64,000 nucleotides of DNA from Acidobacteriota bacterium (GCA_040756905.1 JBFLYD010000035.1:1-64000); one strand, 5' to 3'; counted from the stretch's first letter, positions 6,457 through 57,009 are shown. Made by a program: numbers and translations. The notes: generated by a model not told the origin, from the sequence alone.

Positions 6457-8299
6457 ATTTAAATATAAATGGAGGGAGGAGCATCCAGGTTTTTACACGA
6501 ACATTATCTTTTTCAGGGGGAGAGAATTTAAACTTCTTTACTGCTTCTACAACAGATTCCTCAAGCCCTAAGTTTTTCGGGTTCACATATAAAATTTTCC
6601 AGTTTATAACATCTCCATTTTCAGAAATAAGAACAATAATTCTCACCTCGCCTTTCATCCCAGATCTTTTCATAAACTCTGGATATTTAGGTAATGCATC
6701 TTTTATAATCTGAGGCTTTTTATCTAATAAATTATACCCCACTTCCTCTCCGACCTGTATCCCTTTTTCCTCAAGTTTTTTCTTTTCCTCCATCCCCTCT
6801 TCAACCTTTGGCTCTACCGCAGGTTCTTCTTTTTTTTCTGGAGGAATCTTTTCCTCTTTTTTCTGATCAAACTTAATAACCTCTGCTTTCCTCTCTTCTT
6901 TTTTTGGTTGTGTTGGAATCTTTTTGGGTGGCTCTTTTACTGGCGTCATTTCCTCTTTTTTTACCATGCTCTCTACTTTTTTCTTTGGTTCCTCTTTTTT
7001 TTCAGAGACTGGAGTTATAGCTTCTTTTTTCTCTATGATCAGGTCCTTCTCTTCTTTTTTAACGATTTCTTTTTCCTCGCCTGGCCTCTTCTCCATCTGT
7101 TTAAGCATTTCTTCTTCAGCAGGAATTTTTTGAGCCATTTCTAATTTTTTCTCTGGTAAGACTTGAGGAAGTTGAGTTACCTCCTTTTTAGAAGGAGGTC
7201 CTTTTATCAATAAAAATGTTCCTATCAGAAAAAATAATGCAACGCCACCAATTGCATAATATATGGGTTTTATTTTTTTGATAAATAAAGGAGGTTTCTT
7301 TACAGGAATCGAGATATACTGGGTTGGCATAAATTCTTCTCTTTTCTCAATTTCACTCAATATTTCATCAACACTCTGGAATCTTTTCTCTCTATCCTTT
7401 TCAAGACATTTTAAAATAACATTCGATATTTCAGGGGGGATTTTTCTATTTATCTTCTCCGGTGAAGGAGGCTTCTCATTAAGATGCATCAGAGCCACTG
7501 TTATTGGAGTTGTTCCAGGAAAAGGAAGGGTACCGGTAAATATCTCATACATAACTATTCCAAGGGAATATATATCAGTTCTTCTGTCTGCTACCTCTCC
7601 CCTGAGCTGTTCTGGAGCCATGTAATGCGGGGTCCCGATGACTCCACTTGTTGTAAGCGAAGGGTCACCAGTAATGGCTGCTGAGCGTGCAATTCCGAAA
7701 TCCATGATGTAAACATTTTTATCTTTATCGATCATTATGTTTTTCGATGAGATATCCCTGTGGATCACTCCCATATCATGGGAGGCTTTTAAAGCCTCAC
7801 ACACTTGTTTTATTATTTCGATTCCTTCTTCTAATTTTAATGGACCTTTTCCCTTGATGATATTCTTCAGATTCTCTCCCTCAATGTATTCCATCGAAAT
7901 GAACCTTTTCTCCTCATATTCCTGTAAATCAAAAATCCTTGTTACATTCTTATGCTTGATTTTTCTAGCTAGTTTAATTTCTCTTTTAAAGTAAGAAATG
8001 ATCTTCTCATCTGTGCTGAACTCAGGATGAAGCACTTTTAACGCCACAATTTCATCAAGTTCAAGGTCTTTTGCCTTATAAACTTTTCCCATCCCACCAA
8101 CACCTAAAAGACTTAAAATCTGGTATCTTTTTCCCAAAAAGAATTCATCAGTTATTGCTTTTTCTTTCTGGGCCTCTTCGAGTGCTTTTGTTTCAGGGAT
8201 AACCTGAGTTGCCTCAAGATAACTTCCACAGCTTCTACAAAAATTTGAATCAGGAGGATTTAATGCTGAACATTGGGGACATTTTTTTATCATTGTCAT
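6455..8299 (-). CDS. Membrane Ser/Thr protein kinase with zinc ribbon and C-terminal TonB domain
   Basis: The 614 residues combine four parts. A zinc ribbon occupies 7-24 (Cys7, Cys10, Cys21, Cys24). A PknB-type kinase spans about 59-320, with Gly loop 66-71 (GVGGMG), Lys88, HRD at 180-182, Asn187, DFG at 200-202 and APE at 228-230, so it looks catalytically competent. One transmembrane helix lies at about 347-365, followed by a long Lys/Glu/Pro-rich linker (about 370-520). A TonB C-terminal-type domain occupies about 530-614 (KGEVRIIVLISENGDV...FSPP). The kinase would be cytoplasmic and the TonB-like domain periplasmic. The linker resembles the charged periplasm-spanning region of TonB. Possible roles are kinase control of outer-membrane transport, or an output domain that senses the periplasm. 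The stop codon lies in a repeat element. Confidence 0.9.
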   Translation of the reverse strand: MTMIKKCPQCSALNPPDSNFCRSCGSYLEATQVIPETKALEEAQKEKAITDEFFLGKRYQILSLLGVGGMGKVYKAKDLELDEIVALKVLHPEFSTDEKIISYFKREIKLARKIKHKNVTRIFDLQEYEEKRFISMEYIEGENLKNIIKGKGPLKLEEGIEIIKQVCEALKASHDMGVIHRDISSKNIMIDKDKNVYIMDFGIARSAAITGDPSLTTSGVIGTPHYMAPEQLRGEVADRRTDIYSLGIVMYEIFTGTLPFPGTTPITVALMHLNEKPPSPEKINRKIPPEISNVILKCLEKDREKRFQSVDEILSEIEKREEFMPTQYISIPVKKPPLFIKKIKPIYYAIGGVALFFLIGTFLLIKGPPSKKEVTQLPQVLPEKKLEMAQKIPAEEEMLKQMEKRPGEEKEIVKKEEKDLIIEKKEAITPVSEKKEEPKKKVESMVKKEEMTPVKEPPKKIPTQPKKEERKAEVIKFDQKKEEKIPPEKKEEPAVEPKVEEGMEEKKKLEEKGIQVGEEVGYNLLDKKPQIIKDALPKYPEFMKRSGMKGEVRIIVLISENGDVINWKILYVNPKNLGLEESVVEAVKKFKFSPPEKDNVRVKTWMLLPPFIFK

Positions 8300-14035: not shown

Positions 14036-14500
14036 TAGAAGTTTCAGAGTGATCAGAAAAGGTGGCTTCGAAAACACGCTGTATTTTCCCCAGTCCCGCA
14101 CTAACTTATTTTTACCTAATACAAACGCATTGAATAAATTGTAGGGCAACCCTTTAAGGTTGCTTAATGCAAGGCTAAAGCCTTGCCCTACATGTAACAA
14201 TATTTTATGCGTTTGCTATAAATTAAGGAATTCATAATATCTCTACTTCAATCACTTAATTTTTTTGGAATAAATACAGTTAGTGGGGGAGCACTCATGC
14301 TTCGCTCCCCCTCACTTATTAAAAAGGGAAAGAATATATAACTTATACATAATTCAAAAAACATTATCTTCTATTGGTTTTAATTTCACTCATAATTTAA
14401 AATAAGTGAGAGGACCATGCCCCCTCCGCATTCGTGACGGTTTTCAGGAACCTTCGGTTTCTCCGCCACCCTTCCTGCTTATCTTGTATGTCTAGAATAC
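14036..14500. repeat. Broken GGGTGGCGGAG-family composite with a REP element inside
   Basis: The left part (14036-14100, gatcagaaaaggtggcttcg... acgctgtattttccccag) and the right part (about 14400-14490, cattcgtgacggttttcagg... tctccgccacccttcctgct) belong to one repeat family in inverse orientation to 63079-63323. They are separated by a complete REP pair (14117-14220) and by a hairpin around 14280-14335 (agtgggggagc ... gctccccctcact). I see no gene in the 610-bp gap 13960-14570. Confidence 0.65.
14117..14220. repeat. REP pair element (BIME-like), copy 1
   Basis: The element starts taatacaaacgcattgaata and ends attttatgcgtttgctata, giving outer inverted repeats around AAACGCAT. Inside are two REPs facing outward from each other: GTAGGGCAACC(CTTTAA)GGTTGC and GCAAGGCTAAAGCCTTGCCCTAC. 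It sits inside another repeat, so it inserted later. Confidence 0.85.
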
Positions 14501-34044: not shown

Positions 34045-34148
34045 TAATACAAACGCACAAAATATTTTTACATGTAGGGCAAGGCTTTAGCCTTGCATCA
34101 AGCAACCCTAAAGGGTTGCCCTACAAATTATATATTGCGTTTGTATTA
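34045..34148. repeat. REP pair element, copy 2
   Basis: Bounded by taatacaaacgcacaaaata and attgcgtttgtatta, with GTAGGGCAAGGCTTTAGCCTTGC followed by the inverted REP GCAACCCTAAAGGGTTGCCCTAC. It lies in the 230-bp gap between two genes of the export operon and may affect readthrough. Confidence 0.88.
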
Positions 34149-36561: not shown

Positions 36562-36665
36562 TATAGCAAACGCATAAAATATTGTTATATGTAGGGCAAG
36601 GCTTTAGCCTTGCATTAAGCAACCCTAAAGGGTTGCCCTACAATTTATTTAATGCGTTTGTATTA
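36562..36665. repeat. REP pair element, copy 3
   Basis: Bounded by tatagcaaacgcataaaata and aatgcgtttgtatta, with the same two back-to-back REPs as 34045-34148. It closes the export cluster. The following 190 bp up to the tRNA genes shows no gene. Confidence 0.88.
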
Positions 36666-44152: not shown

Positions 44153-45151
44153 TTAATGTTTAGAGGAGGATTTTAGAAGATAAAGGAAGATAGGAGCTCC
44201 TATAAGGGAGGTAATAACACCAACTGGAATTTCTGAAGGAGGATAAATGGTTCTTGCGATCAAATCCGCATAGATTAGATAAACTCCTCCTAAAAAGCAC
44301 GAGTATGGAAGAACTTTGCGATGGTCAGAGCCTAATATAACCCTAACTGCATGGGGAATTATCAATCCCACAAAGCCGATGATCCCGGCTATAGAAACTG
44401 AGAAAGAAGTGAGAAAAGTTGCTATGATTAAACTAATTCTTCTTAGAAACTTTACATTCAATCCTGTTGATTTTGCCATCTCATCTCCCATAACAAGCAA
44501 GTTTAAATCTTTTGAGAAAAAAACACTAAGAGAAAAAAAGAAAACAAAATACGGGAAGAAATTAAAAACTTTTTTCCAGTCAGAACCCGAAAAACTTCCA
44601 AGCATCCAGAATATAAAGCTTTGCAGATTTTCCTGTTTGAAAATTAAAATTATGCTCGTGAGGGACGATGTGATTGAGCCAATTATTATTCCGATCAAAA
44701 GTAAAGTTACGGGCTTTGGTTCACCTCGAAAGTATGAAATGGAATATACAGCTAAAACAGTTACAAGGCCGAAAAAAAATGAGAAAAATGCCTGAGAGCT
44801 CATTCCAAGAAGAGATAAATTTATGCCTATAAAAGTACTGAGAACAGCCCCAAACGAAGATCCAGAGGAAACGCCAATTATGTATGGCTCTGCTAAAGGA
44901 TTTCCGAAAAAAGCCTGGAGAATTGCCCCTGAAATGGAAAGAGATGCTCCTACAAGAAAAGCAATTATTATCCGTGGAATTCTTAATTCAAAAAGTATGG
45001 TTTTTTTGACTTCATCGTCAAATATTTTTCCTGAAAGGATTTCTTTCGGAGAAATTTCTACTGTTCCTGAAAATGTTGAGATAAACAGGGAAAATAACAA
45101 CATCAAAAATATTGTAAAAGAAAATATCAATTCTCTATTTTTTTTCAGCAT
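44153..45151 (-). CDS. btuC: Cobalamin ABC transporter permease
   Basis: FecCD/BtuC-type permease of 332 residues with about ten transmembrane helices. Family blocks include GASLSISGAILQAFFGNPLAEP, GVSSGSSFGAVLS and GFVGLIIPHAVR. It dimerises and pairs with BtuD and BtuF to import corrinoids into the cytoplasm. Overlaps the btuF end by 17 nt as the last gene of the btu operon. Sequence alone cannot exclude haem or siderophore transport; the cobalamin assignment rests on the riboswitch upstream. Confidence 0.9.
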   Translation of the reverse strand: MLKKNRELIFSFTIFLMLLFSLFISTFSGTVEISPKEILSGKIFDDEVKKTILFELRIPRIIIAFLVGASLSISGAILQAFFGNPLAEPYIIGVSSGSSFGAVLSTFIGINLSLLGMSSQAFFSFFFGLVTVLAVYSISYFRGEPKPVTLLLIGIIIGSITSSLTSIILIFKQENLQSFIFWMLGSFSGSDWKKVFNFFPYFVFFFSLSVFFSKDLNLLVMGDEMAKSTGLNVKFLRRISLIIATFLTSFSVSIAGIIGFVGLIIPHAVRVILGSDHRKVLPYSCFLGGVYLIYADLIARTIYPPSEIPVGVITSLIGAPIFLYLLKSSSKH

Positions 45152-46127
45152 CAGTCATCCCTTTTATAATTTCTTCAAAAGCCTCTACAATCCTCGGCCC
45201 TGGTCTTGAGACTAGATCCTCATTGAGATAAAAAACCTTTCTATCCTTTATCGCGCTGATGAGTTCAATTCCTGGAATTTGTTTAAGCTCTATAAGTTGT
45301 CTGTGATAATCATTTTCATCTTTACTCATCATGAAAATTATATCCGGATTTTTTGATAGAAATTCTTCTTTACTCATTTTAAACCAGAATGAATTTACTG
45401 AGGAGATGTTTATACCTCCGGCTTTTTGTATAAGTTCATTTATGATTGTGTTTTTCCCAGCTGTCCAGAGTTCCTTTCCATCGAGACAAACAAAGGCCTT
45501 TGGGGATGATTTTATTTTAAATTCATTTTTAAGCTTTTTTATATCATTTTTAATTCTTTTGACAAACTCGATTCCATCTTCCTTTTTTCCTGTTATTTCA
45601 GAAATTTTTATTATCATTCTGAATAAATCCTCCAGGCTTTCTTTGAAGTTTATGGCAAAGATATTTACTTTAAGCTTTTTCAACCTGTGTATTGCCTGAA
45701 GGGAATTCCCTCTGGTTCCAATTACTAAATCAGGGTTTAACGAAAGAATTTTTTCAAAATTCAAATCAAGAATTCCCCCAACAATTTCTTTTTGTTTAGC
45801 TTTCTCAGGAAAATTACAGAACCTTGTGACGCCAGCTACCCTGTTTTCCAGACCAAGAGAAAAAAGTATCTCGGTGATGTTAGGAGCGAGAGAAACTATT
45901 CTTTGAGGAGGATATTTTATTGAAATTCTGTTATTCAGGTCATCAGTAAATTCTTTTATCTCATTTTTTCCTGAAGAAGATAAATTTAATTTGACTTGTT
46001 TTATAGGTTGTTTGTTTATAAATATATTTATTGGACAGCGCCCACCCCGATAGAGAACTATTAAAGATATAAAAGATACAATAAGTAAGGAAAAGAGAAT
46101 AGCTAATATTTTTTGGTTCTTTCTCAT
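45135..46127 (-). CDS. btuF: Cobalamin-binding periplasmic protein
   Basis: The 330-residue type III substrate-binding protein has PQRIVSLAPNITEILFSLGL and an interdomain helix, then VNSFWFKMSKEEFLSKNPDI and PGPRIVEAFEEI at the end. The N-terminus is a membrane anchor (about 8-27) without a lipobox, so the protein may be tethered. Residues RCPINIFINKQPIKQ (about 30-44) precede the domain. Their DNA matches part of the repeat-derived insert near 24783-24810, so this linker may come from a captured repeat. 33 nt separate it from btuD. Confidence 0.88.
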   Translation of the reverse strand: MRKNQKILAILFSLLIVSFISLIVLYRGGRCPINIFINKQPIKQVKLNLSSSGKNEIKEFTDDLNNRISIKYPPQRIVSLAPNITEILFSLGLENRVAGVTRFCNFPEKAKQKEIVGGILDLNFEKILSLNPDLVIGTRGNSLQAIHRLKKLKVNIFAINFKESLEDLFRMIIKISEITGKKEDGIEFVKRIKNDIKKLKNEFKIKSSPKAFVCLDGKELWTAGKNTIINELIQKAGGINISSVNSFWFKMSKEEFLSKNPDIIFMMSKDENDYHRQLIELKQIPGIELISAIKDRKVFYLNEDLVSRPGPRIVEAFEEIIKGMTDAEKK

Positions 46128-46160
46128 TTAAATTCTTTCAAAGCCACTCAGTTATTCATC

Positions 46161-46943
46161 TCACCTTTTTTCAGGAAAAATGAGTGGAGGAGAATCAGGA
46201 GATTCTTTTAGAATTTTAACTTCTGCATCGTATACTTTTTTTATGTTTTCCCTTTCGAGCATTTCAGAAACTTTGCCATTCTTGAATATCTTTCCCTCCA
46301 CAAGGAATAATATTTTTTTTGAATAAAGAGAAGCCAGATTCAGATTGTGTTCTGTTACAAGAAGAGTTTTTTTCTTTTTTTTAACTAATTCTTCTAAAAT
46401 CTCATAAACCTCAATCTGAAAGTTAATATCAAGATGAGAACTCGGCTCATCCAGAAAAATTATCGGCGTGTCCTGGGCAAGGGCTTTTGCAATGAAAACT
46501 CTCTGAATTTCTCCAGAACTTAATTCAAGGATTTTTCGGTCTTTAAAATCTAAAACTTTTGTGATTTCCATTGCTTCAAAAACAGTCTCATCCGAGTTTT
46601 TCTCAAATCTTCCCTTGTATGGATATCTTCCCATCTCAACTATTTCTTTCACTGTGAAAGGAAATGGCGTGAAATTCATCTGGGGAACATAGGAGATAAT
46701 TTTTGCAATTTTTTTTTGTGAGAGTGAAGATACACTCTTTCCCTCAACAATAACCTCTCCAGCAACTTTTGGAACAAAGCCCAATATTGCCTTTAAAAGC
46801 GTTGTTTTTCCTGAGCCATTTTTTCCGAGAATAGCGAGAAAATCTCCTTCATATAGAGAAAACGAAATATTTTTTATTTTAAAAATAGCATCATATCCCG
46901 CAGAAAGATTATGGACTCTTAAAATTTCTCCTATTTTTTCCAT
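46161..46943 (-). CDS. btuD: Cobalamin ABC transporter ATP-binding protein
   Basis: The 260 residues have Walker A at 40-47 (GKNGSGKT), the signature LSSGEIQRVFIAKAL and Walker B IIFLDEPSSHLD, then the switch His in LLVTEHNLNLAS. It powers the BtuC channel. The start overlaps the btuB end by 13 nt, so expression is coupled to the receptor. Confidence 0.92.
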   Translation of the reverse strand: MEKIGEILRVHNLSAGYDAIFKIKNISFSLYEGDFLAILGKNGSGKTTLLKAILGFVPKVAGEVIVEGKSVSSLSQKKIAKIISYVPQMNFTPFPFTVKEIVEMGRYPYKGRFEKNSDETVFEAMEITKVLDFKDRKILELSSGEIQRVFIAKALAQDTPIIFLDEPSSHLDINFQIEVYEILEELVKKKKKTLLVTEHNLNLASLYSKKILFLVEGKIFKNGKVSEMLERENIKKVYDAEVKILKESPDSPPLIFPEKR

Positions 46944-48763
46944 TGCAGACCCACAAGGATTCCCCTATCAGGAGATGGGTATCCATAGATTTCTTCATAG
47001 GACCTGTTCAACAAATTACTTATCCTGATTGTAAAGAAAAATCCATCCTTTAAATCTATTCTGATGTTTGCATTTATCCGATTGAATGGAGGATTGTCCA
47101 CTATTGAGAAATATCTTTCATCGAGATCTTTTCTATTTCCCACATAGATGAAATTTAAATTAAGGTTTATTTTTTCTCGAATAAGAAAATTCAAGGAAGA
47201 ACTCCATGTATCTTTCGTTCTTCTTAGCAAGGGTTGTCCCTTCCCTTCGGAAAGTATGAGTCCGGTGTAGTTAAAATTTAAATTTATTTCTCTTACCGGA
47301 TAAAGGAGGAGTGAAAATTCATATCCTTTTGAACCAAATTTAGCTAAATTTTCCATCCTGTATTTAAAGAAATCAAAAACTATGAGATTTTTATAATCGG
47401 ATTTGAAATATGTTACTCCTGAAATTATTCTTCCTTCCAAGAAGTTTTTTTCAACTCCGATCTCCCAGCTTGTTGCCGTCTCTGGCTTTAATTCTGAATT
47501 TCCAAAAGGTCCTGCATATTCGATTGGAATCGGAGCTCTGAAGCCTTTTCCCCATGACGATTTGATCTTTACATTTCCATAAGGAATAAAATAGCAACCC
47601 GTAATTCTTGGAGATATGTATTCTCCAAATTGATTGTTGCTGTCATATCTTACTCCTGCTGTCAATACGAAGTTCTTCATTGATTTAAATTGATTCTGTA
47701 TAAAAAGAGATTTATTTGAGATACGGAGGCTCTTAAAGTTTTCTCCAAAAGAATTTTCATCAGAGACTCGAGATTCTTCAATTTCTCCTCCAAAGCTCAA
47801 TATATTACTTTTGTTGTAAATTAAATCCTGTTGAAGGTTTAATCTTAAAAGAGAAGAATCAGTTTTTGAATAAGTGTAGCCAAAGAAATCCTGGGGATCA
47901 TTGAACTGATAGTTTCTATCGAAATAGGAAAGGTTTATAGAGAAGTGTGATTTTTCAGATTTCCTTGTGAAAGGAATCGATACAAAATTTTCTTTTACTC
48001 TGTTATTCCTCATGGGAGAAGGAAAGCCCATTGAAAAAGGAATTTCTGTCATCGAATTATATGACCTTAAAAATATAGCCAGATTCGTTTTTTCGCTGAA
48101 GAAAATTTCACCTTTTCCGGATAAATCAAATGCTCTGAATCCATCATTTTCTATTTCTCCGTTGCTTTTCCAGTAATAAGAAAAAATTGAAAAATCTGTA
48201 TGTTTGAATTTTCTTGATACAGATGCTATTCCGTTAATTGTGCCATCAGACCCGCTGTTTAATTCCAGGCTCAGAAATTTATCAGGTTTTTTTGTTATTA
48301 AATTTATAACTCCTCCCATCGCCCTTGACCCCCATAGAGTGCTCTGAGGACCTTTTATTATTTCTATCCTTTCAACATTGTGGAGGGGAATCTGGGAGAA
48401 GTCATAGGAATAGGAAGACCAGTCAATAATCGGAATTCCATCGAGCATCACAAGATTGTGATTTGAGCTGGAACCTCTTAAGAATAGCGACGAAAAATGA
48501 CCTGTGGATCCATTTTGAAAAACATTTGCTCCTGGCATAAAGTTTAAAATTTCGTTCAGGGTTTTAAACCCCATTTTTTCAATATCTTCTTTTGTAATAA
48601 GAGTGTATGAAGTCGATACTTCTTTGAGTTTTTCCTCGTACCTGTTTGCAGTTACGATTACTTTTTCATAAATTTTGAATTCCTCCTCTTTCTTTTTTTC
48701 ATCTGAAAAGCTAAATAAAACCGCTGTAAAACACAAAACAAACATTAAGATAATCTTTTGCAT
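46931..48763 (-). CDS. btuB: TonB-dependent cobalamin receptor
   Basis: The 610 residues have a signal peptide (ending SFSDEKKK), then a TonB-box-like KVIVTANRYEEK. The plug domain (about 45-150) has MGFKTLNEILNFMPGANVFQ and the RIEIIKGPQSTLWGSRAMGG block. A 22-strand barrel ends GILVGLQWKK. It takes up corrinoids across the outer membrane with TonB energy, possibly from the TonB-like proteins at 21.5 kb or 6.5 kb. The final residue is Lys rather than Phe, which is unusual. It is first in the operon, downstream of a cobalamin riboswitch. Confidence 0.92.
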   Translation of the reverse strand: MQKIILMFVLCFTAVLFSFSDEKKKEEEFKIYEKVIVTANRYEEKLKEVSTSYTLITKEDIEKMGFKTLNEILNFMPGANVFQNGSTGHFSSLFLRGSSSNHNLVMLDGIPIIDWSSYSYDFSQIPLHNVERIEIIKGPQSTLWGSRAMGGVINLITKKPDKFLSLELNSGSDGTINGIASVSRKFKHTDFSIFSYYWKSNGEIENDGFRAFDLSGKGEIFFSEKTNLAIFLRSYNSMTEIPFSMGFPSPMRNNRVKENFVSIPFTRKSEKSHFSINLSYFDRNYQFNDPQDFFGYTYSKTDSSLLRLNLQQDLIYNKSNILSFGGEIEESRVSDENSFGENFKSLRISNKSLFIQNQFKSMKNFVLTAGVRYDSNNQFGEYISPRITGCYFIPYGNVKIKSSWGKGFRAPIPIEYAGPFGNSELKPETATSWEIGVEKNFLEGRIISGVTYFKSDYKNLIVFDFFKYRMENLAKFGSKGYEFSLLLYPVREINLNFNYTGLILSEGKGQPLLRRTKDTWSSSLNFLIREKINLNLNFIYVGNRKDLDERYFSIVDNPPFNRINANIRIDLKDGFFFTIRISNLLNRSYEEIYGYPSPDRGILVGLQWKK

Positions 48764-48849
48764 TTATTCCTCCTGCGATAAATTTTTAATTTTTTCCTCA
48801 ATTTTTTTGAACCCTCTTCCCTCCGAAGAGAGAATTCTTTCTCAGGGCT

Positions 48850-49010
48850 AAGTAGGTCTCCTGACTCTTGGATCACCCCCAGCCCTGCCTTCCCATTCTC
48901 TTCATCAGAGAACAGTGGCTTTTAGGGCTGAGTCCCCAATCACAGTAGCGGGGGCTGTGGTGGATTTAAAACCACCTTCCCTTGACACTTATGCCCCAGG
49001 AATTCCAGCT
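48850..49010 (-). promoter_or_regulatory. Cobalamin riboswitch (B12 element)
   Basis: On the minus strand the conserved core is clear: GGGAAGGTGGTTTTAAATCC, then CAGCCCCCGCTACTGTGA, AGCCACTGTTCTCT, GGGAAGGCAGGGCTGG and the closing AGTCAGGAGACCTAC. It lies between a consensus promoter and btuB. Adenosylcobalamin binding would shut off the receptor and transporter when B12 is plentiful. The switching stage could be translational (sequestering the GGAGGAA site of btuB) or transcriptional; I do not see an obvious terminator. Confidence 0.95.
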
Positions 49011-49083: not shown

Positions 49084-49668
49084 AAAGAGTTCAATTTCAC
49101 AGAGTCATTCGCAGGGAGAAAGTACATTTTTGAACTCTTTCCTTTAAGTTTTCAAGAATTTCTTCTTTTTAAAGGAAGTTCTTTAAAAATACCCGAAAAT
49201 GCTCAAGATATCACCCGGAATATCTTTAACGCTATTTCTCCTTTATATGAAGTGATTCGTGATCTGATGTTATGTGACACTGGCTTTGCAAATCATTTTA
49301 CTAAATTGGACACGGGTAGAATTTTCGAAAACAGTATTTTTCAGGATCTCAGAATGAAGGGCGAACTCAATTACTATCAGAGAAAAAGCGGGACTGAGAT
49401 TGACTTCATCCTGGATAAGAAAAAGGCATATGAAGTTAAACTATAGCAAACGCATAAAATATTGTTACATGTAGGGCAAGGCTTTAGCCTTGCATTAAGC
49501 AACCCCCGAATCAAGTTCGGGGCAGGCTCTAAAGGGTTGCCCTACAATTTATTTAATGCGTTTGTATTAAATCTGAATGAATTTGATATAAAGAGACTAA
49601 AAGAGATGGCTAATGAATTAAATTTAGAAGAATTTAAAATCGTCTCAAAAAATTACAGAGAGTTATAA
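49084..49668 (+). pseudogene. Broken AAA ATPase with DUF4143 (PD-(D/E)XK-like) C-terminus, split by a REP element
   Basis: Frame-wise reading from 49084 gives ESFAGRKYIFELFPLSFQEF, the characteristic strand of AAA/DUF4143 ATPases. A short linker follows, then LCDTGFANHF and the nuclease-like C-terminal part with RKSGTEIDFILDKKKAYEVK. The N-terminal Walker A/B portion (100 or more residues) is missing, and the middle helical part is shortened. At 49442 the frame is cut by a REP pair (49442-49569). It resumes with LNEFDIKRLKEMANELNLEE, which looks like the proper C-terminus. The gene is therefore truncated, internally deleted and interrupted, with no function left. Confidence 0.75.
49442..49569. 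mobile_element. REP pair element inserted in the pseudogene, copy 4
   Basis: Bounded by tatagcaaacgcataaaata and aatgcgtttgtatta. The second REP carries an extra stem (ccgaatcaagttcgggg) in its loop, so this copy is 24 bp longer than the 104-bp form. Host coding sequence continues on both sides, which helps define the element's ends. Confidence 0.85.
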
Positions 49669-49699
49669 AACATCGAGTATGGTTTTATGCAGTAGATTT

Positions 49700-50344
49700 T
49701 TAAATATTGGCCAGAGAAGCTATGAGTTTTTTGGCATTTTCCGTTAAGGTATTCCAATCATTTGTTTCAATTGCTTTTTTGTCAAGTAGAGCAGTTCCGA
49801 TTCCCACACAGCAGGCTCCGTTCATAATAAAATCCTTTGCATTATCGAGGTTTACTCCTCCAGTGGGCATTATTTTTATGTGAGGTAAAGGTCCTTTTAT
49901 ATCCTTAAAATATGTGGGTCCGATCGAGGTTGCTGGAAAGACTTTCACAATGTCAGCACCTATTTGCCAGGCTGAAACAATCTCTGTTGGAGTGAAAGCT
50001 CCAGGAAAAACTGGAATAGTATAACGATTGCAAACTTTAATCATTTCGTAATTTGTAACAGGCGAAACAACAAATTCGGCACCTGAGAGAATGGCTATTC
50101 GTGCAGTTTCAGAATCGAGAACACTTCCAGCACCTATGACAACATCCTGAGGTTTATTTTTTGCCATGGCTTTAATCACGTCAATAGCATCAGGAGTGGT
50201 CATGGTAATTTCAATTGCTCTAACACCCCCAGCTTGAACAGCTTCGATCACTTTCAACAATTTTTCAGAATCGGACATTCGAATAACAGCTATAACTTTT
50301 GTTTGAAATATTGTATTTAAAACTTTTTCTTTTGACATGGACAC
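49700..50344 (-). CDS. eda: 2-keto-3-deoxy-6-phosphogluconate aldolase
   Basis: KDPG aldolase splits KDPG into pyruvate and glyceraldehyde 3-phosphate. The 214 residues have Glu45 (IEITMTT) and the Schiff-base Lys134 (IVKVFPA). GAGSVL, PVFPGAFTPTE and MPTGGV complete the phosphate site. A good ribosome site (GAGGAGG) precedes the ATG. It follows the KDG kinase by 8 nt on the same strand, a complete two-step route from 2-keto-3-deoxygluconate. Confidence 0.94.
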   Translation of the reverse strand: MSMSKEKVLNTIFQTKVIAVIRMSDSEKLLKVIEAVQAGGVRAIEITMTTPDAIDVIKAMAKNKPQDVVIGAGSVLDSETARIAILSGAEFVVSPVTNYEMIKVCNRYTIPVFPGAFTPTEIVSAWQIGADIVKVFPATSIGPTYFKDIKGPLPHIKIMPTGGVNLDNAKDFIMNGACCVGIGTALLDKKAIETNDWNTLTENAKKLIASLANI

Positions 50345-50352
50345 CTCCTCTT

Positions 50353-51381
50353 TTACCTTTGCACTCTGCCTGAAGTTTCGCCTTCCATCAAAGCGAGGAC
50401 TTCTTTTTCGGAAGCCAAATTAAAATCGCCGGGAATCGAATGCTTGAGGCAGGATGCTGCGATGGCGAATTCCAGTGCTTCTTTATCGTTACCGAATTTG
50501 ATTAACCCATGAATTAGGCCGGCTGAAAAAGCATCTCCTCCGCCGATCCGGTCAACGATATCAGTGATGTCGTATTTGGTTCCAATCAAGCATTCCTTTT
50601 CATTTCGTAAAACAGCTGACCATCCGTTATGGTCAGCGCTGTGGCTTTCCCTCAAGGTAATAGCTATTTTTTCGAGGTTTGGATACATATCTATAACTTT
50701 TTTGCTCAACCTCTCATAAAAAGATAAGTCCAATTTGCTTCCGGATACATCCATTTCTTCTTCGATTCCCAGGGATTTCTGGCAATCTTCTTCATTGGCA
50801 ATCCCTATATCCGCATATTTGACGATATTTTTCATTACCTCTGGAGCTGATTTCCCATATCTCCAGAGTTTTGCTCTGTAGTTTAAATCAATCGATACTG
50901 TAATATCTTTTGATTTTGCTGCATTAACAGCTTCAAGGGTCAAATCAGCTGCTGACTGGCTGATGGCAGGTGTTATCCCAGTTGTATGAAACCATTTCGC
51001 ATCCTTAAAAACGAGTTCCCAATCAATATCCCCTCTTTTAGCCTCAGCCATTGAAGAATGTTCCCGGTCATAAATAACCTTTGAAGGTCTCTGGTTGGCA
51101 CCGGTTTCTGTAAAATAGATGCCCAACCGATTACCTTTTTTAACGATAAACCTGGTATCAATGCCAAATTTTTTAAGCTCTGATGCCACTGATTCTCCAA
51201 TCTCGTTATCGGGAAGAACTGTGACATATCGAACACTATGCCCGAAGTTTGAGAGCGAGACTGCCACGTTCGCCTCTGCTCCTCCGAAGAAAATATGAAA
51301 AACTGGAGATTGAAAAAGCTTTTCTTTTCCTGGAGGCGATAGTCTAAGCAATATTTCTCCAAAAGTTACAATTGCTTCCAT
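50353..51381 (-). CDS. kdgK: 2-keto-3-deoxygluconate kinase (PfkB family)
   Basis: The 342-residue ribokinase-family enzyme has the N-terminal [15 protein letters not shown] and the C-terminal [17 protein letters not shown] with the catalytic Asp. Pairing with KDPG aldolase supports KDG as substrate over other sugars. ATG with AGGAG upstream. The pathway fits breakdown of uronates or sugar acids released from polysaccharides such as pectin or alginate. No polysaccharide lyase is seen nearby. Confidence 0.9.
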
Positions 51382-51472
51382 GATTTATTCTCCTAAAAAC
51401 TTCATATTCATCATATTCATAATATCATGTTTTTTTAATTTTTTTTTCTGTTTTTTTGAAAAATGGATTATC

Positions 51473-51576
51473 TAATACAAACGCATTAAATAAATTGTAG
51501 GGCAACCCTTTAAGGTTGCTTAATGCAAGGCTAAAGCCTTGCCCTACATGTAATGACATTTAATGCGTTTGAATTA
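51473..51576. repeat. REP pair element, copy 5
   Basis: Bounded by taatacaaacgcattaaata and atttaatgcgtttgaatta; GTAGGGCAACC and GCAAGGC REPs back to back. It lies between the divergent kdgK and the cupin/SMP-30 gene, so both promoters must lie close to or within it. Confidence 0.88.
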
Positions 51577-51606
51577 ATATGGAAAAATGATAAGAAGGAG
51601 GTTGGC

Positions 51607-54378
51607 ATGAAAAAATATTTATATTTGGTAACAATAATCAGTATAATGATTGGATTAGGCGGGTTTTCAGCCAATATAGACCAGAAGAAACTAACTGAGG
51701 AACCAGAGCCTTCATATCGGGAGGATGCTCCATCAAATGTCCGTCATCCAGAAGTTGACACTAATGTCTATCTTTACATCAATCACTGGAGAAACTCACT
51801 CCCCCATGAGGGACATGGTGGTCTGATTGAAAGGGATATCCTTACCCCTGGTGATCCTTTAAATCCTCCTAAAAAAGGTGCAGTTTTGAAGTATCTTAAA
51901 GCTTATAAACGAGCGGTTCTCCAGCCCAGATGCAACACTCAGCCCACAAAACACGATAAAGAACAGGTCTTTTTCTATGTGATGAGTGGAACTGGGCAAG
52001 TGGAAGGTGGTAATAAGAAAGCTGAACTCGAGGAGGGTACTGCTTTAGTGATTCCTGCTGGACTAGAGTACAGGTTTTTCAATCCAAATGAAGTTCCCCT
52101 TGAGATGATTATAGTTGTTGAGGAGATGCCTAACGGGTTCAAGCCAAACATAGAAATGTCTGTTGGAAGTTATCACAACTCAAAGCCAGGAGTTGGATAC
52201 CACTGGGCTCATATAGGTAGAGGATTTTTATATGATGTAAATCCTAAATTTGCAAACCCTATGGGCATGGCAGTAGTATCAATCGATAAATTCGACATAG
52301 CGCAGCCTCATGTTCATGGTCCAGGATGCGAGGAGATCTGGTTGCAGCTTAAGGGAAAGAGCCTTTTATTTTTCGGAAACCGCCTATTGTGGCAGGAGCC
52401 AGGAGAAGCATTCCTTATCCCACCAAACAATAGAGTTCCCCACTGCTCAATTAATCATACTGATGAGCACATGCTTTGGCTCTACCTCGGTAACCGCCAT
52501 GATCACTTGAAAAAATCTCAAAGGACAGCATGGGAAGTTAAAAATGATAAGATTATCAAAGAGCGAAACATCAAAGGTAGAATTCGCAATGACATTCCTG
52601 AATCGAAAGTTGTTTCGAACCTTGAGCCAGGTGTTGTGATAAGCATTAATGAACTGCCTGTTACTGAGATCGCACCTGGTGTAAAAACTCGAATATACTG
52701 GGGAAAGGGTATTCTTATAAGCTGGATGACATTAGAGCCATACTCAGAGATTCCTGTGGAAAGACTTCCAAGCGAGCGTATCATGGTAGTTATGAAAGGT
52801 TCAGTTGACCAGCTTATCAGTGGAACCTTTGTTACAATGCAGGCTCTTGAACGAGAGGAGCCAACTGGCATAAATGGAGGCACTCCTAAAAATGAGTTTG
52901 TTTTTCTTGAAAAAGGTTCTAAAAATGCTATGAAAGCAGGAAAAGATGGTGCAGAAATTGTTGAAGTATACTCCCCTGTACGTCTTGATTACATGAAAAA
53001 AGCTGGGGCTTCCAGATTACCCAAAAAAGTTCAAACTGGAAATTTTCCATTAAAGCCATCTGTGAAACCGAACAAGATTTATGATTTGCATGATTTGCAA
53101 TTTACAGAGCTTGCTCCTGGAGCTTACTCCAGGCTTATCTCAGGTAATGGTGCCCAGCTGAGTTTCATCAAGATGAACCCCGATTCAACCTTTGACCTTC
53201 ATATCCATCCTGAAGAGCAGTTAATGATAGTCCTTCGTGGCTGGATCGATGAGATTATAATGGATAAAGTCACCAGAATGGAAAAAGGAGACATTCTTCT
53301 TCTGCCAGGAAATATGGTCCATGGTGGAAGGATTGGGCCTTTTGGTTGTGATGTGCTCGATGTTTTCTGGCCGCCTCGTCCTGATTATAAAGAAAAAATG
53401 GAAAGGAGGCTTTCAGCTTATCATGCCATAATTCCTGAAGATTCAAAGGTTGAACTCGTCGTTGATGGTGGAAAAGAAGGTCCTGGGCTTAATTTTACTG
53501 AAGGGCCCTCATGGTTAAACGGTAGACTCTATTTTTCAAGCATGTACTTCGATAAGGACTGGAACGGTGATCCCAAAAGGAGTTCCTTGGTTGAGATGGA
53601 CCCAGGTGGTACCTATCATTATATATCGCACGGCAAGATGCAGACAAATGGAACTAAACCTCTGGACAACGGAAATTTAGCTGTCTGTGATATGTTTGGT
53701 CACCACGTGATTGAAATGACAAAAGAAGGGAAGGTCGTGAGAACTTTGGCGAGCATGTATAACGGAAGACCCTTTGATGGACCAAATGACCTTGTAATCA
53801 ATCGAAAAGGTGGCATTTACTTTACTGATCCTCAGTTCACACCTCAAAAGGAAAAATACCAACCTGGTAGGAGTGTTTATTATCTTACACCGAAAGGTGA
53901 AGTTATAAGGGTTATAGAACCTGATGAATTTGCCATGCCGAATGGTATTGCTCTGAGTCCTGATGGAAAGACTCTTTATGTCAACAACACTTTTGATGAT
54001 GAAAAATGGTGGAATGTTGACAGCAATAAAGATAACTTTGTCTGGGCATATGATATTAGTGATGATGGTACTCTGTCCAATGCTCGAAAATTTGCAGAAC
54101 TTTTCCTTACACCAGAAGTACTCGATAGAAAAGGAAAAAGCTCAGGCGCCGACGGTATGACTGTGGATGAGCTTGGTAATTTATATGTAGCCACCTATAT
54201 GGGTCTCCAGATTTTTAGTTCTAAAGGTGAATTTATAGGCATCATTAACTTCCCCGTATACCCTGTCAACATCTGTTTTGGAGATGACGTCATGAACACA
54301 ATTTATGCAACATGTTATGATAAGATTTACAAGATCCGCACAAAGGTGAAGGGTTTAATACATTCATCTAAGAATTGA
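51607..54378 (+). CDS. Secreted multi-cupin protein fused to an SMP-30/gluconolactonase domain
   Basis: From the ATG at 51607 (AAGGAGG upstream; an in-frame extension to 51553 is REP-derived) the protein has 923 residues with a signal peptide (ending GFSANI). Four cupin-like modules follow. Module 1 is at about 110-195. Module 2, at about 225-305, has HVHGPGCEE and a late His. Module 3, at about 345-470, has lost its His ligands (MTLEPYSEIPVE). Module 4, at about 500-595, is canonical: HIHPEEQ, EKGDILLLPGNMVHG. The last 300 residues form a six-bladed SMP-30 lactonase-like propeller (FTEGPSW, GPNDLVINRKGGIYFTDPQF, PNGIALSPDG). Substrate is unknown. The KDG genes suggest sugar acids, lactones or uronates. 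Confidence 0.85.
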   Translation: MKKYLYLVTIISIMIGLGGFSANIDQKKLTEEPEPSYREDAPSNVRHPEVDTNVYLYINHWRNSLPHEGHGGLIERDILTPGDPLNPPKKGAVLKYLKAYKRAVLQPRCNTQPTKHDKEQVFFYVMSGTGQVEGGNKKAELEEGTALVIPAGLEYRFFNPNEVPLEMIIVVEEMPNGFKPNIEMSVGSYHNSKPGVGYHWAHIGRGFLYDVNPKFANPMGMAVVSIDKFDIAQPHVHGPGCEEIWLQLKGKSLLFFGNRLLWQEPGEAFLIPPNNRVPHCSINHTDEHMLWLYLGNRHDHLKKSQRTAWEVKNDKIIKERNIKGRIRNDIPESKVVSNLEPGVVISINELPVTEIAPGVKTRIYWGKGILISWMTLEPYSEIPVERLPSERIMVVMKGSVDQLISGTFVTMQALEREEPTGINGGTPKNEFVFLEKGSKNAMKAGKDGAEIVEVYSPVRLDYMKKAGASRLPKKVQTGNFPLKPSVKPNKIYDLHDLQFTELAPGAYSRLISGNGAQLSFIKMNPDSTFDLHIHPEEQLMIVLRGWIDEIIMDKVTRMEKGDILLLPGNMVHGGRIGPFGCDVLDVFWPPRPDYKEKMERRLSAYHAIIPEDSKVELVVDGGKEGPGLNFTEGPSWLNGRLYFSSMYFDKDWNGDPKRSSLVEMDPGGTYHYISHGKMQTNGTKPLDNGNLAVCDMFGHHVIEMTKEGKVVRTLASMYNGRPFDGPNDLVINRKGGIYFTDPQFTPQKEKYQPGRSVYYLTPKGEVIRVIEPDEFAMPNGIALSPDGKTLYVNNTFDDEKWWNVDSNKDNFVWAYDISDDGTLSNARKFAELFLTPEVLDRKGKSSGADGMTVDELGNLYVATYMGLQIFSSKGEFIGIINFPVYPVNICFGDDVMNTIYATCYDKIYKIRTKVKGLIHSSKN

Positions 54379-54452
54379 TCATCCTTCTATATACAAAAAG
54401 GAGTCAACTATAAAGAATTGAGGCATGGGTTGAAATGAATCTGATTAATCAT

Positions 54453-54609
54453 AGTGAACGGCATAAATAAGTTGACATTTTTCTTTGTAGGGCAACCCTT
54501 TAGAGCCTGCCCCGAACCTTGCCCTGAACTTGTTTCATGGGTTGATTCGGGGGTTGCTTTTCGCAAGGCTAAAGCCTTGCCCTACGTCTATTTATTTTTA
54601 GCGTTTACC
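54453..54609. repeat. REP pair element, divergent copy 6
   Basis: Contains GTAGGGCAACCCTTTAGAGC, a long inserted stem (cctgccccgaacc ... ggttgattcggggg) and GCAAGGCTAAAGCCTTGCCCTAC, with GGCATAAATAA / TTATTTTTAGCG outer arms. The end motif has drifted from AAACGCAT. Confidence 0.75.
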
Positions 54610-54610
54610 C

Positions 54611-54636
54611 CGTTAGAAAGTGAAAACTTTCTAACG
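54611..54636. promoter_or_regulatory. Perfect 11-bp hairpin with GAAA tetraloop
   Basis: CGTTAGAAAGT, GAAA loop, ACTTTCTAACG. It lies between the REP element and the DUF362 gene, 27 bp before its start. It could be a terminator for read-through from the cupin gene (tail AGGTTTACTATATTTT) or an mRNA 5' stabiliser. It may also be another repeat unit. Confidence 0.45.
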
Positions 54637-54663
54637 AGGTTTACTATATTTTAGGAGATGATT

Positions 54664-55725
54664 ATGTTAAAAAGTAAAGACATTTTAAAACGCCGAGATT
54701 TTCTTAAAAGAATTGGTCTGAGCGTAATGGGAATGATTGCTCTTGGAAGAGAATCTTTTTACCATGACAAAAAATATGCTGACACAGATGATCGGCAAAG
54801 CAAAGTCAGCCAATTATACAAAGAAGTAACTAAGCCTGCTCGGGTGACTTTGGTTAAAGGTAATGACAGGCGGGAGATCGTGTACCGGTCACTAAAGTTG
54901 ATTGAAGATGAAATTTTAAAATCAATCGGCAACAAAAGAATTTTGATAAAGCCAAATCTTGTCCTTGCAGATAATCCCCTTGCTGTTACTCATGTAGATG
55001 CTATAAGAGCTACTTTAGATTTTCTTAAGCCTCATTATAAAAAACAGATATTAATCGGCGAATCAAGCGTTCATAACACCTCAGATTGTTTTAAGAATTA
55101 TGGGTATCTTCCTTTGGAAAAAGAATATAATGTGAAGATTGTCGACCTTAATCGGAGTTCCTATAAATATCGATACGTTTTAGGAAAAGAAAATCAACCA
55201 GTGTCAATAAGAATTATCTCCTCTTTTTTAGATCCAAATCTTTACATTATTTCAGCTGCTCAAATGAAAACTCACAATATTGTACTCGTTACATTGTCAT
55301 TAAAAAACATTCTCCTTGGCTGTCCTCTTAATGATTACAAGAAAAATGACAAGGGTTTGATGCATACTGGTCCTCGAGCTGTGAATGATATCTGTCATTT
55401 TAACATGTTTCATATGGCTCAGGAAGTGTATCCTGATCTGGCAGTAATAGATGGATTTGAGGCTATGGAGGGTAATGGTCCTGCCTGGGGAACTCCTTTT
55501 GACTCCCGCGTTTCAATTGCCAGTTGTGATGCTCTGGCAGCAGACACCATAGCCACAAAAATAATGGGCTTTGATCCCAATAGGATTCTTTATCTTTCAG
55601 CAATGTCAGAAGCAGGGATGGGCCAGGGAGATATCGAAAAGATAAAGGTGATTGGCACACCGCTGGAACAGTGCCTTTATCATTTTAAGCCTCATGAAGA
55701 AATGGCGAAACTCTATAAATTATAA
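54664..55725 (+). CDS. DUF362 protein with twin-arginine-like leader
   Basis: From the ATG at 54664 (AGGAG 6 nt upstream) there are 353 residues. The N-terminus has KRRDFLKRIGLSVMGMIALG, a Tat-type signal. The DUF362 body has RILIKPNLVLADNPLAVTHV, the GESSVHNTSDCFKNYGY segment, QMKTHNIVLVTLSLKNIL and DGFEAMEGNGPAWGTP. Unlike many DUF362 proteins it shows no CX2CX2CX3C ferredoxin clusters, so it would not carry FeS centres. Its function is unknown. It lies between the cupin/lactonase gene and a transporter and may act on the same substrate in the periplasm. Confidence 0.8.
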   Translation: MLKSKDILKRRDFLKRIGLSVMGMIALGRESFYHDKKYADTDDRQSKVSQLYKEVTKPARVTLVKGNDRREIVYRSLKLIEDEILKSIGNKRILIKPNLVLADNPLAVTHVDAIRATLDFLKPHYKKQILIGESSVHNTSDCFKNYGYLPLEKEYNVKIVDLNRSSYKYRYVLGKENQPVSIRIISSFLDPNLYIISAAQMKTHNIVLVTLSLKNILLGCPLNDYKKNDKGLMHTGPRAVNDICHFNMFHMAQEVYPDLAVIDGFEAMEGNGPAWGTPFDSRVSIASCDALAADTIATKIMGFDPNRILYLSAMSEAGMGQGDIEKIKVIGTPLEQCLYHFKPHEEMAKLYKL

Positions 55726-55752
55726 ACACTATAAAAAAGCTAAGAAATTTAC

Positions 55753-57009
55753 ATGAGGTTATTCTTGTATTTATTTTTTTTGTGCGCTTTGGTCACTCTA
55801 ATGATGTTTCTCATCGGTTGCCAATCTGAGCTGGGATTCCCCTTAGTTGCACTTTTTGTATCTTTAGCTTTTTATTTTATGGGACACAAGCTTCTTAAAA
55901 GTTTTGCTTTTACAATCTGGGTGTTAGCATTTGTTGCCTCTTCTATGTTTTATCCTTCTGCATTCGAAAGATGGTTTGGAATCGAGTTAAAAATTCTTAT
56001 TGTCCCTCTTATTCAGATTATCATGTTCGGTATGGGTACTACTCTGACCGTGAAAGATTTTGAAAGGGTTCTTATAATGCCTTGGCCTGTTTTCATTGGG
56101 ATATTTCTTCAATTTTCAGTGATGCCGATTGTGGGTTACAGCATTGCTTCGCTTTTGAGTTTTGAGCCTGAAATAGCCGCTGGTATTGTTTTAGTCGGTT
56201 CAGTTTCAGGGGGAGTTGCGTCTAATGTTATGACATATCTTGCAAGTGGCAATGTTGCACTTTCCGTTACAATGACCTCATGTTCGACACTTATGTCTCC
56301 AGTTATGACCCCCTTCTTAATGAAGACTCTCGGAGGAAAGCTCATACCAGTGGATTTTATAGCAATGATGCTTTCGATATTCAACATGATTATAGTCCCA
56401 ATTGTTGCAGGATTGATTGCTAACAAGATACTACAAAGCAGCAATAAATGGGCAAATAAAGTAGAATCGTTAGGCCTTATTTCATCCGGCATCATATTTT
56501 TTGTTATAGTGCTAATTTTTTTTCGAGAGAATTTTCTTGGGCCTCTGGCCACCCTCAAGAATGGAATAATCCTTGGATTTTCTCTGATTGGAATAATTGC
56601 TTTAGTTAAACTTATTATTAACCTTTTATTAAAAGTTCCGCAAAATTGGTTCTATGAGGCCTTGCCAATAGTTTCGATGTTTTGTATCTGTTTTATCATA
56701 GCTATTATCACTGCACAATCCAGAGATACCCTTTTAACCGTGGGAATGAAGCTACTTCTCGCTGTTTTTATTCACAACTCCGTCGGTTATTTCCTCGGAT
56801 ACTGGGGCGCTAAGGCGGCAAAGTTAGATGAAAGGTCATGCCGTACTGTGGCTTTCGAAGTGGGAATGCAGAATGGAGGAATGGCGACAGGTATTGCAAT
56901 GGATGTGTTGAAGAGCGCAAAGGCAGCGTTAGCTCCTGCGATATTTGGTCCATGGATGAACATTTCTGGATCTGTGCTGGCTAACTGGTGGCGTCGAAAA
57001 CCTATATAA
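55753..57009 (+). CDS. Bile acid:sodium symporter (BASS)-family transporter
   Basis: The 418-residue inner-membrane protein has about ten to twelve transmembrane helices. It carries the SBF-family segments IIMFGMGTTLTVKDFERVL, GIVLVGSVSGGVASNVMTYL and TMTSCSTLMSPVMTP in the crossover region, and RTVAFEVGMQNGGMATGIA. The first two helices (about 1-75) are extra relative to the core. BASS proteins carry organic anions such as bile acids, pantoate or 2-keto acids with sodium. With KDG kinase and aldolase in the region, a sugar-acid substrate is plausible but unproven. Confidence 0.87.
   Translation: MRLFLYLFFLCALVTLMMFLIGCQSELGFPLVALFVSLAFYFMGHKLLKSFAFTIWVLAFVASSMFYPSAFERWFGIELKILIVPLIQIIMFGMGTTLTVKDFERVLIMPWPVFIGIFLQFSVMPIVGYSIASLLSFEPEIAAGIVLVGSVSGGVASNVMTYLASGNVALSVTMTSCSTLMSPVMTPFLMKTLGGKLIPVDFIAMMLSIFNMIIVPIVAGLIANKILQSSNKWANKVESLGLISSGIIFFVIVLIFFRENFLGPLATLKNGIILGFSLIGIIALVKLIINLLLKVPQNWFYEALPIVSMFCICFIIAIITAQSRDTLLTVGMKLLLAVFIHNSVGYFLGYWGAKAAKLDERSCRTVAFEVGMQNGGMATGIAMDVLKSAKAALAPAIFGPWMNISGSVLANWWRRKPI

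Follow-up and report, generated by a model that had tools for sequence, protein, structure and literature searches.

A conserved gene set for a bicupin, a bicupin-lactonase, an exported LarA-like DUF362 protein and a BASS transporter in Aminicenantia and Bacteroidota

The window analysed here is a stretch of 64,000 nucleotides from an Acidobacteriota bacterium (GCA_040756905.1 JBFLYD010000035.1; host genome of 2.56 Mb, labelled G000), and the locus under study comprises its positions 49700-57009. Its core is a set of four genes, kept in Aminicenantia and in some Bacteroidota, that encode a bicupin, a bicupin-lactonase, a DUF362 protein with a twin-arginine translocation (Tat) signal and a BASS transporter; in the window genome the first two are joined into a single gene. 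The probable role of the set is to open and rearrange sugar acids on the outer side of the cell membrane and to take them up, and the DUF362 protein, a homologue of LarA, could be an exported sugar-acid epimerase of the nickel-pincer nucleotide (NPN) type. The initial annotation had built the region around a four-cupin/SMP-30 fusion that stands divergent from the genes for 2-keto-3-deoxygluconate (KDG) kinase and 2-keto-3-deoxy-6-phosphogluconate (KDPG) aldolase. Its observations were confirmed in part and its interpretation is partly supported: the finding is kept, but its focus is now the conserved exported module rather than the fusion and the KDG genes, and the DUF362 protein, earlier missed as a LarA relative, is probably the most informative member of that module. 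The core genes of the window are the following:

51607-54378, plus strand: four-cupin/SMP-30 fusion protein of 923 residues (Pfam SGL, E 9e-33; Cupin_2, E 1e-27)
54658-55725, plus strand: Tat-exported DUF362 protein with LarA-related fold (Pfam DUF362, E 6e-35)
55753-57009, plus strand: BASS transporter, related to PanS (Pfam SBF, E 4e-38)

Conservation of the gene set

All five genes that had been annotated in the locus, these three and the two KDG genes described below, were recovered at their coordinates in the Pfam search, each with a strong family match. The fusion protein carries a Sec-type signal at its N-terminus and its translation most likely starts at 51607, which is preceded by AGGAGG, while an alternative upstream ATG at 51553 sits within a repeat element. 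The DUF362 protein shows the twin-arginine motif KRRDFLK near its N-terminus, with the RR nearly invariant among homologues, and a scan of the protein for a 4Fe-4S cysteine motif found none, in agreement with its earlier description as a Tat-type protein without FeS clusters.

Among the loci of at least 60% identity, the bicupin-lactonase gene (bicC-SGL) is followed by DUF362 in 13 of 14, the sole exception being the Latescibacterota locus L034, and the BASS gene comes next wherever the contig continues. The set is thereby shared across phyla, as the check for conservation had called for; its loci in Aminicenantes and in Bacteroidota metagenome-assembled genomes (MAGs) are L023/L033, L025, L027/L040, L028/L038, L030, L035-L037, L039 and L041. 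The contigs of L031 and L032 stop inside DUF362 and those of L035 and L041 start past the bicupin. In four Aminicenantia genomes the separate bicupin (bicN) and DUF362 have been duplicated together as a pair. In the tree, the lactonase half of the fusion clusters with two Bacteroidota MAGs (support 94/96), and therefore the set was probably moved between phyla. A literature search found no paper describing the four-gene set.

Some neighbours hint at another chemistry, the processing of 3-keto-sugars: a ThuA gene directly follows the BASS gene in six Aminicenantia loci, and a Gfo/Idh/MocA gene lies near distant homologues in Acidobacteria. However, ThuA is absent from the window, from the Bacteroidota loci and from that of G051, and Gfo/Idh/MocA is absent from the core set, which leaves this explanation quite improbable. 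Distant lactonase genes (Euzebyella, Pleomorphovibrio, ZC4RG29) adjoin another bicupin and a pyrroloquinoline quinone (PQQ) dehydrogenase with cytochrome c, as in this locus:

Euzebyella saccharophila L043, 9908-21529: bicupin-lactonase, bicupin, PQQ dehydrogenase, BASS carrier, Tat-type MR/MLE enzyme, RraA-like protein, aldehyde dehydrogenase

The Euzebyella carrier is 43% identical to the BASS protein of the window, the MR/MLE enzyme is dehydratase-like and the PQQ enzyme is a sugar dehydrogenase. Such an arrangement is what one expects of an oxidative sugar-acid route in the periplasm with subsequent uptake, and it offers the best support for the pathway suggested initially. A PQQ dehydrogenase as upstream oxidant was sought in the window genome and none was found; among the Aminicenantia checked, a clear one occurs only in G049.

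The DUF362 protein and the NPN cofactor

The DUF362 protein and LarA are homologous, and three residues of the active site line up between them. A profile of 47 DUF362 sequences, aligned by hhalign to nine LarA proteins, gave a score of 54.4 (E 1.7e-6 local, 1.6e-8 global), compared with at most 19 over 60 column-shuffles and with 15-17 for reversed or unrelated profiles; with shallow profiles significance was lost and the register of the alignment was unchanged. The residues concerned lie in one signature:

55267-55365, plus strand: K204-x-H206-x9-K216-N ... H236, with H206, K216 and H236 aligned to LarA H174, K184 and H200

In LarA these are the catalytic histidine, the lysine that tethers NPN and a histidine ligand of the nickel (PMC9283937, PMC7583248), so that K216 and H236 supply counterparts of the tether and the nickel ligand, in a part of the structural model that is of low confidence. 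Of 36 divergent DUF362 proteins, 28 show the pattern H-x9-K-[N/S]..H, among them ones with 4Fe-4S domains. A Foldseek search with the AlphaFold model (pLDDT 61, pTM 0.67) returned LarA family members as all of the best six PDB matches (probability 1.00), the highest TM-score being 0.46, to 4nar, the D-gluconate 2-epimerase GntE2 from T. maritima (PMC7583248). DUF362 and DUF2088 have been placed in one Pfam clan, CL0471, where DUF362 serves merely as outgroup (PMC11770544); in the papers that a literature search found, DUF362 is not assigned a cofactor.

The genes for making NPN accompany the cassette. LarC and LarE are present in all eight cassette genomes and LarB in seven, LarB not having been found in the G061 draft, while LarA (PF09861) is absent from three of them, namely the window genome, G051 and G055. 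In Euzebyella and Pleomorphovibrio, both without DUF362, none of LarB, LarC and LarE came out over the cut-off. In G060 larC has a Tat-DUF362 gene as its divergent neighbour, and in G061 the same holds for larC followed by larE. Loci with such arrangements are:

L068, 1560-4051: Tat-DUF362 divergent from larC, with an adjoining multi-4Fe-4S membrane-type protein
L069, 5099-8212: Tat-DUF362 divergent from larC and larE, with an adjoining multi-4Fe-4S membrane-type protein

Pooled over 24 genomes, the co-occurrence has p 0.0005, with genomes that are not phylogenetically independent and of which 10 were chosen through the lactonase gene; the 14 control genomes alone give p 0.09, which is not significant.

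Several observations speak against an NPN-dependent DUF362 protein. The confidence of the model is low, worst around the motif, and the TM-scores span just 0.36-0.46. LarA H108 has no conserved counterpart in DUF362, so that of the two catalytic histidines (H108, H174) only the latter is matched, and LarA D72/R75 face a gap in the alignment, with a conserved KPN motif nearby. In the window genome larB, larC and larE do not adjoin the set, and since each genome has 5-14 DUF362 genes, LarBCE need not serve the one in the set. Bacteroides ihuae carries DUF362 without LarC, which counts against a universal rule linking DUF362 to NPN, and a Parabacteroides DUF362 protein, 50.6% identical to a larC-adjacent one and with the H/K/H motif intact, adjoins a 4Fe-4S protein and has no lar genes nearby; therefore NPN does not follow from the motif by itself. 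Methanocaldococcus jannaschii, a control genome, has LarC, and neither LarA (Lar_N) nor DUF362 was found there by the models used, so there may be another NPN client in this organism. On plasmids, searches with the window DUF362 gave one weak match only, and the annotated larC loci examined there have LarA and not DUF362.

The Bacteroides and Parabacteroides cases and the lost equivalents of H108 and D72/R75 would be expected if the same exported lactone/sugar-acid module contained a DUF362 protein without NPN, its LarA fold and His/Lys residues serving another cofactor or binding only. Against this, LarBCE is complete or almost so in every cassette genome, three of which are devoid of LarA, and the two DUF362-free genomes have none of it over the cut-off; we regard a DUF362 protein without NPN as somewhat less likely than one with it. 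That larB, larE and larC occur without larA in about 15% of surveyed genomes is a published open question (PMC11796402), and DUF362 proteins could be among the missing users of the cofactor. It is possible, and put forward with due reserve, that they form a second family of NPN enzymes that explains at least part of the LarA-less genomes making NPN, here with a member acting outside the membrane on sugar acids. With a specific candidate at hand that is conserved, exported and matched to LarA in active-site residues, the question of NPN clients can be tested directly, and an expression system exists (PMC11796402).

The fusion protein and the KDG genes

The 923-residue protein, which is predicted to be secreted, in line with the initial description, consists of a bicupin N-terminal half (residues 1-300) and a bicupin-lactonase half (residues 305-923), with these parts on the plus strand:

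51889-52131: cupin 1 (about residues 95-175), metal ligands lost, E119 as sole remnant
52249-52506: cupin 2 (about residues 215-300), invariant ligands H235, H237, E242 and H279
52513-52536: fusion joint; in relatives the first gene stops here and the second starts, with a lipoprotein signal peptide
52699-53001: cupin 3 (about residues 365-465), metal ligands lost
53077-53406: cupin 4 (residues 491-600), motif HxHPxEQ...H, ligands H532, H534, Q538 and H572
53470-54366: SMP-30/gluconolactonase propeller, ligand-type residues E632, N681, N727 and D849

Four cupins were correctly recognized, but not one of them, as had been proposed, but two are degenerate: in the alignment, only cupins 2 and 4 show complete HxH...E/Q...H ligand sets, and the ligand histidines of cupin 3 are all missing. 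The set of cupin 2 is unchanged in 16 bicupin homologues and that of cupin 4 in 18 homologues. The lactonase-type propeller was also identified rightly. All 18 homologues compared, which cover Aminicenantes, Acidobacteria, Bacteroidota and Latescibacterota, keep its four SMP-30-type metal-site residues unchanged, and the lactonase site is intact. Similarity between the bicupins bicN and bicC was not detectable by hhalign. The model of the N-terminal bicupin (pLDDT 51) was left out of the fold search.

The single-protein fusion occurs in the window genome only and is thus not the centre of the region; all other genomes have two adjacent genes or the second gene alone. The relatives' separate bicupin has a signal peptide, and the N-terminus of their bicupin-lactonase shows a lipobox-like cysteine in 14 of 14 readable cases. 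As read from the sequence, the window genome has lost the stop, the spacer and the lipoprotein signal in frame. Its occurrence in one draft genome might point to an error of assembly or sequencing, but such an error would have had to remove a stop, a spacer and an entire signal peptide without upsetting the reading frame, the sequence across the joint is clean and neither half has lost its conservation; we consider an error very improbable.

Cupin 4 also bears on a pathway for unsaturated uronates or keto-uronates, in which it would be KdgF-like, a bicupin would be KduI-like and KDG would pass straight to KdgK and Eda. Its ligand pattern is that of its aligned solved relatives, and KDG genes are adjacent in the window, as is an aldolase in L031/L047. 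Yet its closest solved structures are 4e2g (E 9e-15) and CelOCE (9bwf, E 4e-5), KdgF being marginal (E 0.03), and the fusion has no KduI match in Pfam. A lactonase has no role in such a pathway and the KDG genes are unlinked to the set in other Aminicenantia, so that this pathway is an improbable explanation. The KDG genes and the repeat elements are arranged as follows:

49700-50344, minus strand: KDPG/KHG aldolase (eda; Pfam Aldolase, E 2e-49), accessory, later placement
50353-51381, minus strand: KDG kinase of the PfkB type (kdgK; Pfam PfkB, E 1e-31), accessory, later placement
51473-51576, no strand: palindromic repeat resembling a miniature inverted-repeat transposable element, between kdgK and the fusion gene, directly upstream of the latter
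49447-49564, no strand: second repeat copy, on the opposite side of kdgK-eda
14122-14215, 34046-34143 and 36567-36660: further copies in the window

Both genes are divergent from the fusion, as had been annotated, but their constant membership of the pathway is not supported. The counterpart of the pair in relatives, a kdgK-eda operon with 56-63% identity, lies on other contigs than the set, near TldD/PmbA-type genes, in five of the five relatives checked; TldD/PmbA homologues are located 36 kb from the pair in the window. The repeat is 98-118 bp long, and BLAST gives about 60 matches to it genome-wide. From the position in relatives, the TldD/PmbA homologues and the flanking repeats it follows that kdgK-eda is probably an old operon that was moved to its present site later and does not belong to the set. 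The same evidence makes it a serious possibility, though a less than even one, that the adjacency is an accident of rearrangement near repeats, which would be compatible with the explanation of the core set favoured below. In contrast, two Bacteroidota MAGs (L031 and L047) have a different, non-orthologous KDPG aldolase (about 32% identity) in divergent orientation to the set, and each such adjacency has a chance of roughly 0.002-0.004 by our own estimate from gene counts. This independent aldolase suggests that KDPG-aldolase function and the set can be linked.

Between eda and a cobalamin riboswitch (48834-49007, minus strand; Rfam, 95.7 bits), which lies ahead of a TonB receptor/ABC importer-like gene group (44153-48763), there is a remnant-looking coding stretch (49100-49670) with no intact open reading frame. 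Elsewhere in the window, a Ser/Thr protein kinase domain is fused to a C-terminal TonB domain (6458-8299, minus strand).

Proposed route and comparison with known systems

The best explanation, held tentatively and with less than even confidence, is that the core forms a four-protein extracytoplasmic sugar-acid module in which DUF362 is a C2 epimerase of the NPN type. The bicupin-SMP-30 protein, normally a lipoprotein, would open a sugar lactone to the free aldonic or 2-hydroxy acid, while cupins 2 and 4 would be metal sites binding or isomerising the same ligand. The DUF362 protein would be loaded with its cofactor, most likely NPN, in the cytoplasm and exported in folded form; Tat export fits a protein that needs to fold around a cofactor beforehand. 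Outside, it would invert the C2 carbon of the sugar acid, as GntE and LarA do, and the BASS carrier would import the epimerised product. In the window genome KDG kinase and KDPG aldolase would complete the breakdown, but the dehydratase needed for this last step was not found in the set, which weighs against the scheme. Which cofactor is used, on what class of substrate, in which order the steps proceed and which way transport runs are all inferred here. The periplasmic pathway of the initial annotation stands as regards the conserved set, the export signals and lipobox, the intact lactonase site and the Euzebyella locus; it is not supported as regards the fusion as its central feature and the KDG genes as constant members. 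The gene set would be a previously undescribed way for uncultured bacteria to handle sugar lactones and acids.

Among known systems, the LarA/DUF2088 NPN racemases, in particular GntE2, share with the DUF362 protein the fold, the three residues, the clan and the presence of LarB/C/E; they differ in having H108 and D72/R75, which are not conserved in the window protein, and the latter is Tat-exported with a cofactor that is only predicted. The SMP-30/gluconolactonases (3e5z, 3dr2, PF08450) have in common with the fusion the propeller with intact metal-site residues, whereas the version described here is joined to a bicupin, in the window also to a second one, and its relatives are normally lipoproteins. 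The window transporter matches the SBF profile as PanS and other BASS carriers do, but with 253 bits it misses the curated PanS cut-off of 400 bits (NF047939), and it sits in a sugar-acid context. The KDG kinase-KDPG aldolase operon of relatives resembles the window pair in sequence, but it lies apart from the set on separate contigs. LarA-type genes adjoin uxaC in Paenibacillus (L122, 1-6453) and altronate dehydratase in Sulfitobacter (L124, 2096-6161), both plasmid-borne; these Lar operons place an NPN-type epimerase gene beside sugar-acid genes, as at the window locus, but unlike the set they use LarA and are without lactonase or bicupin.

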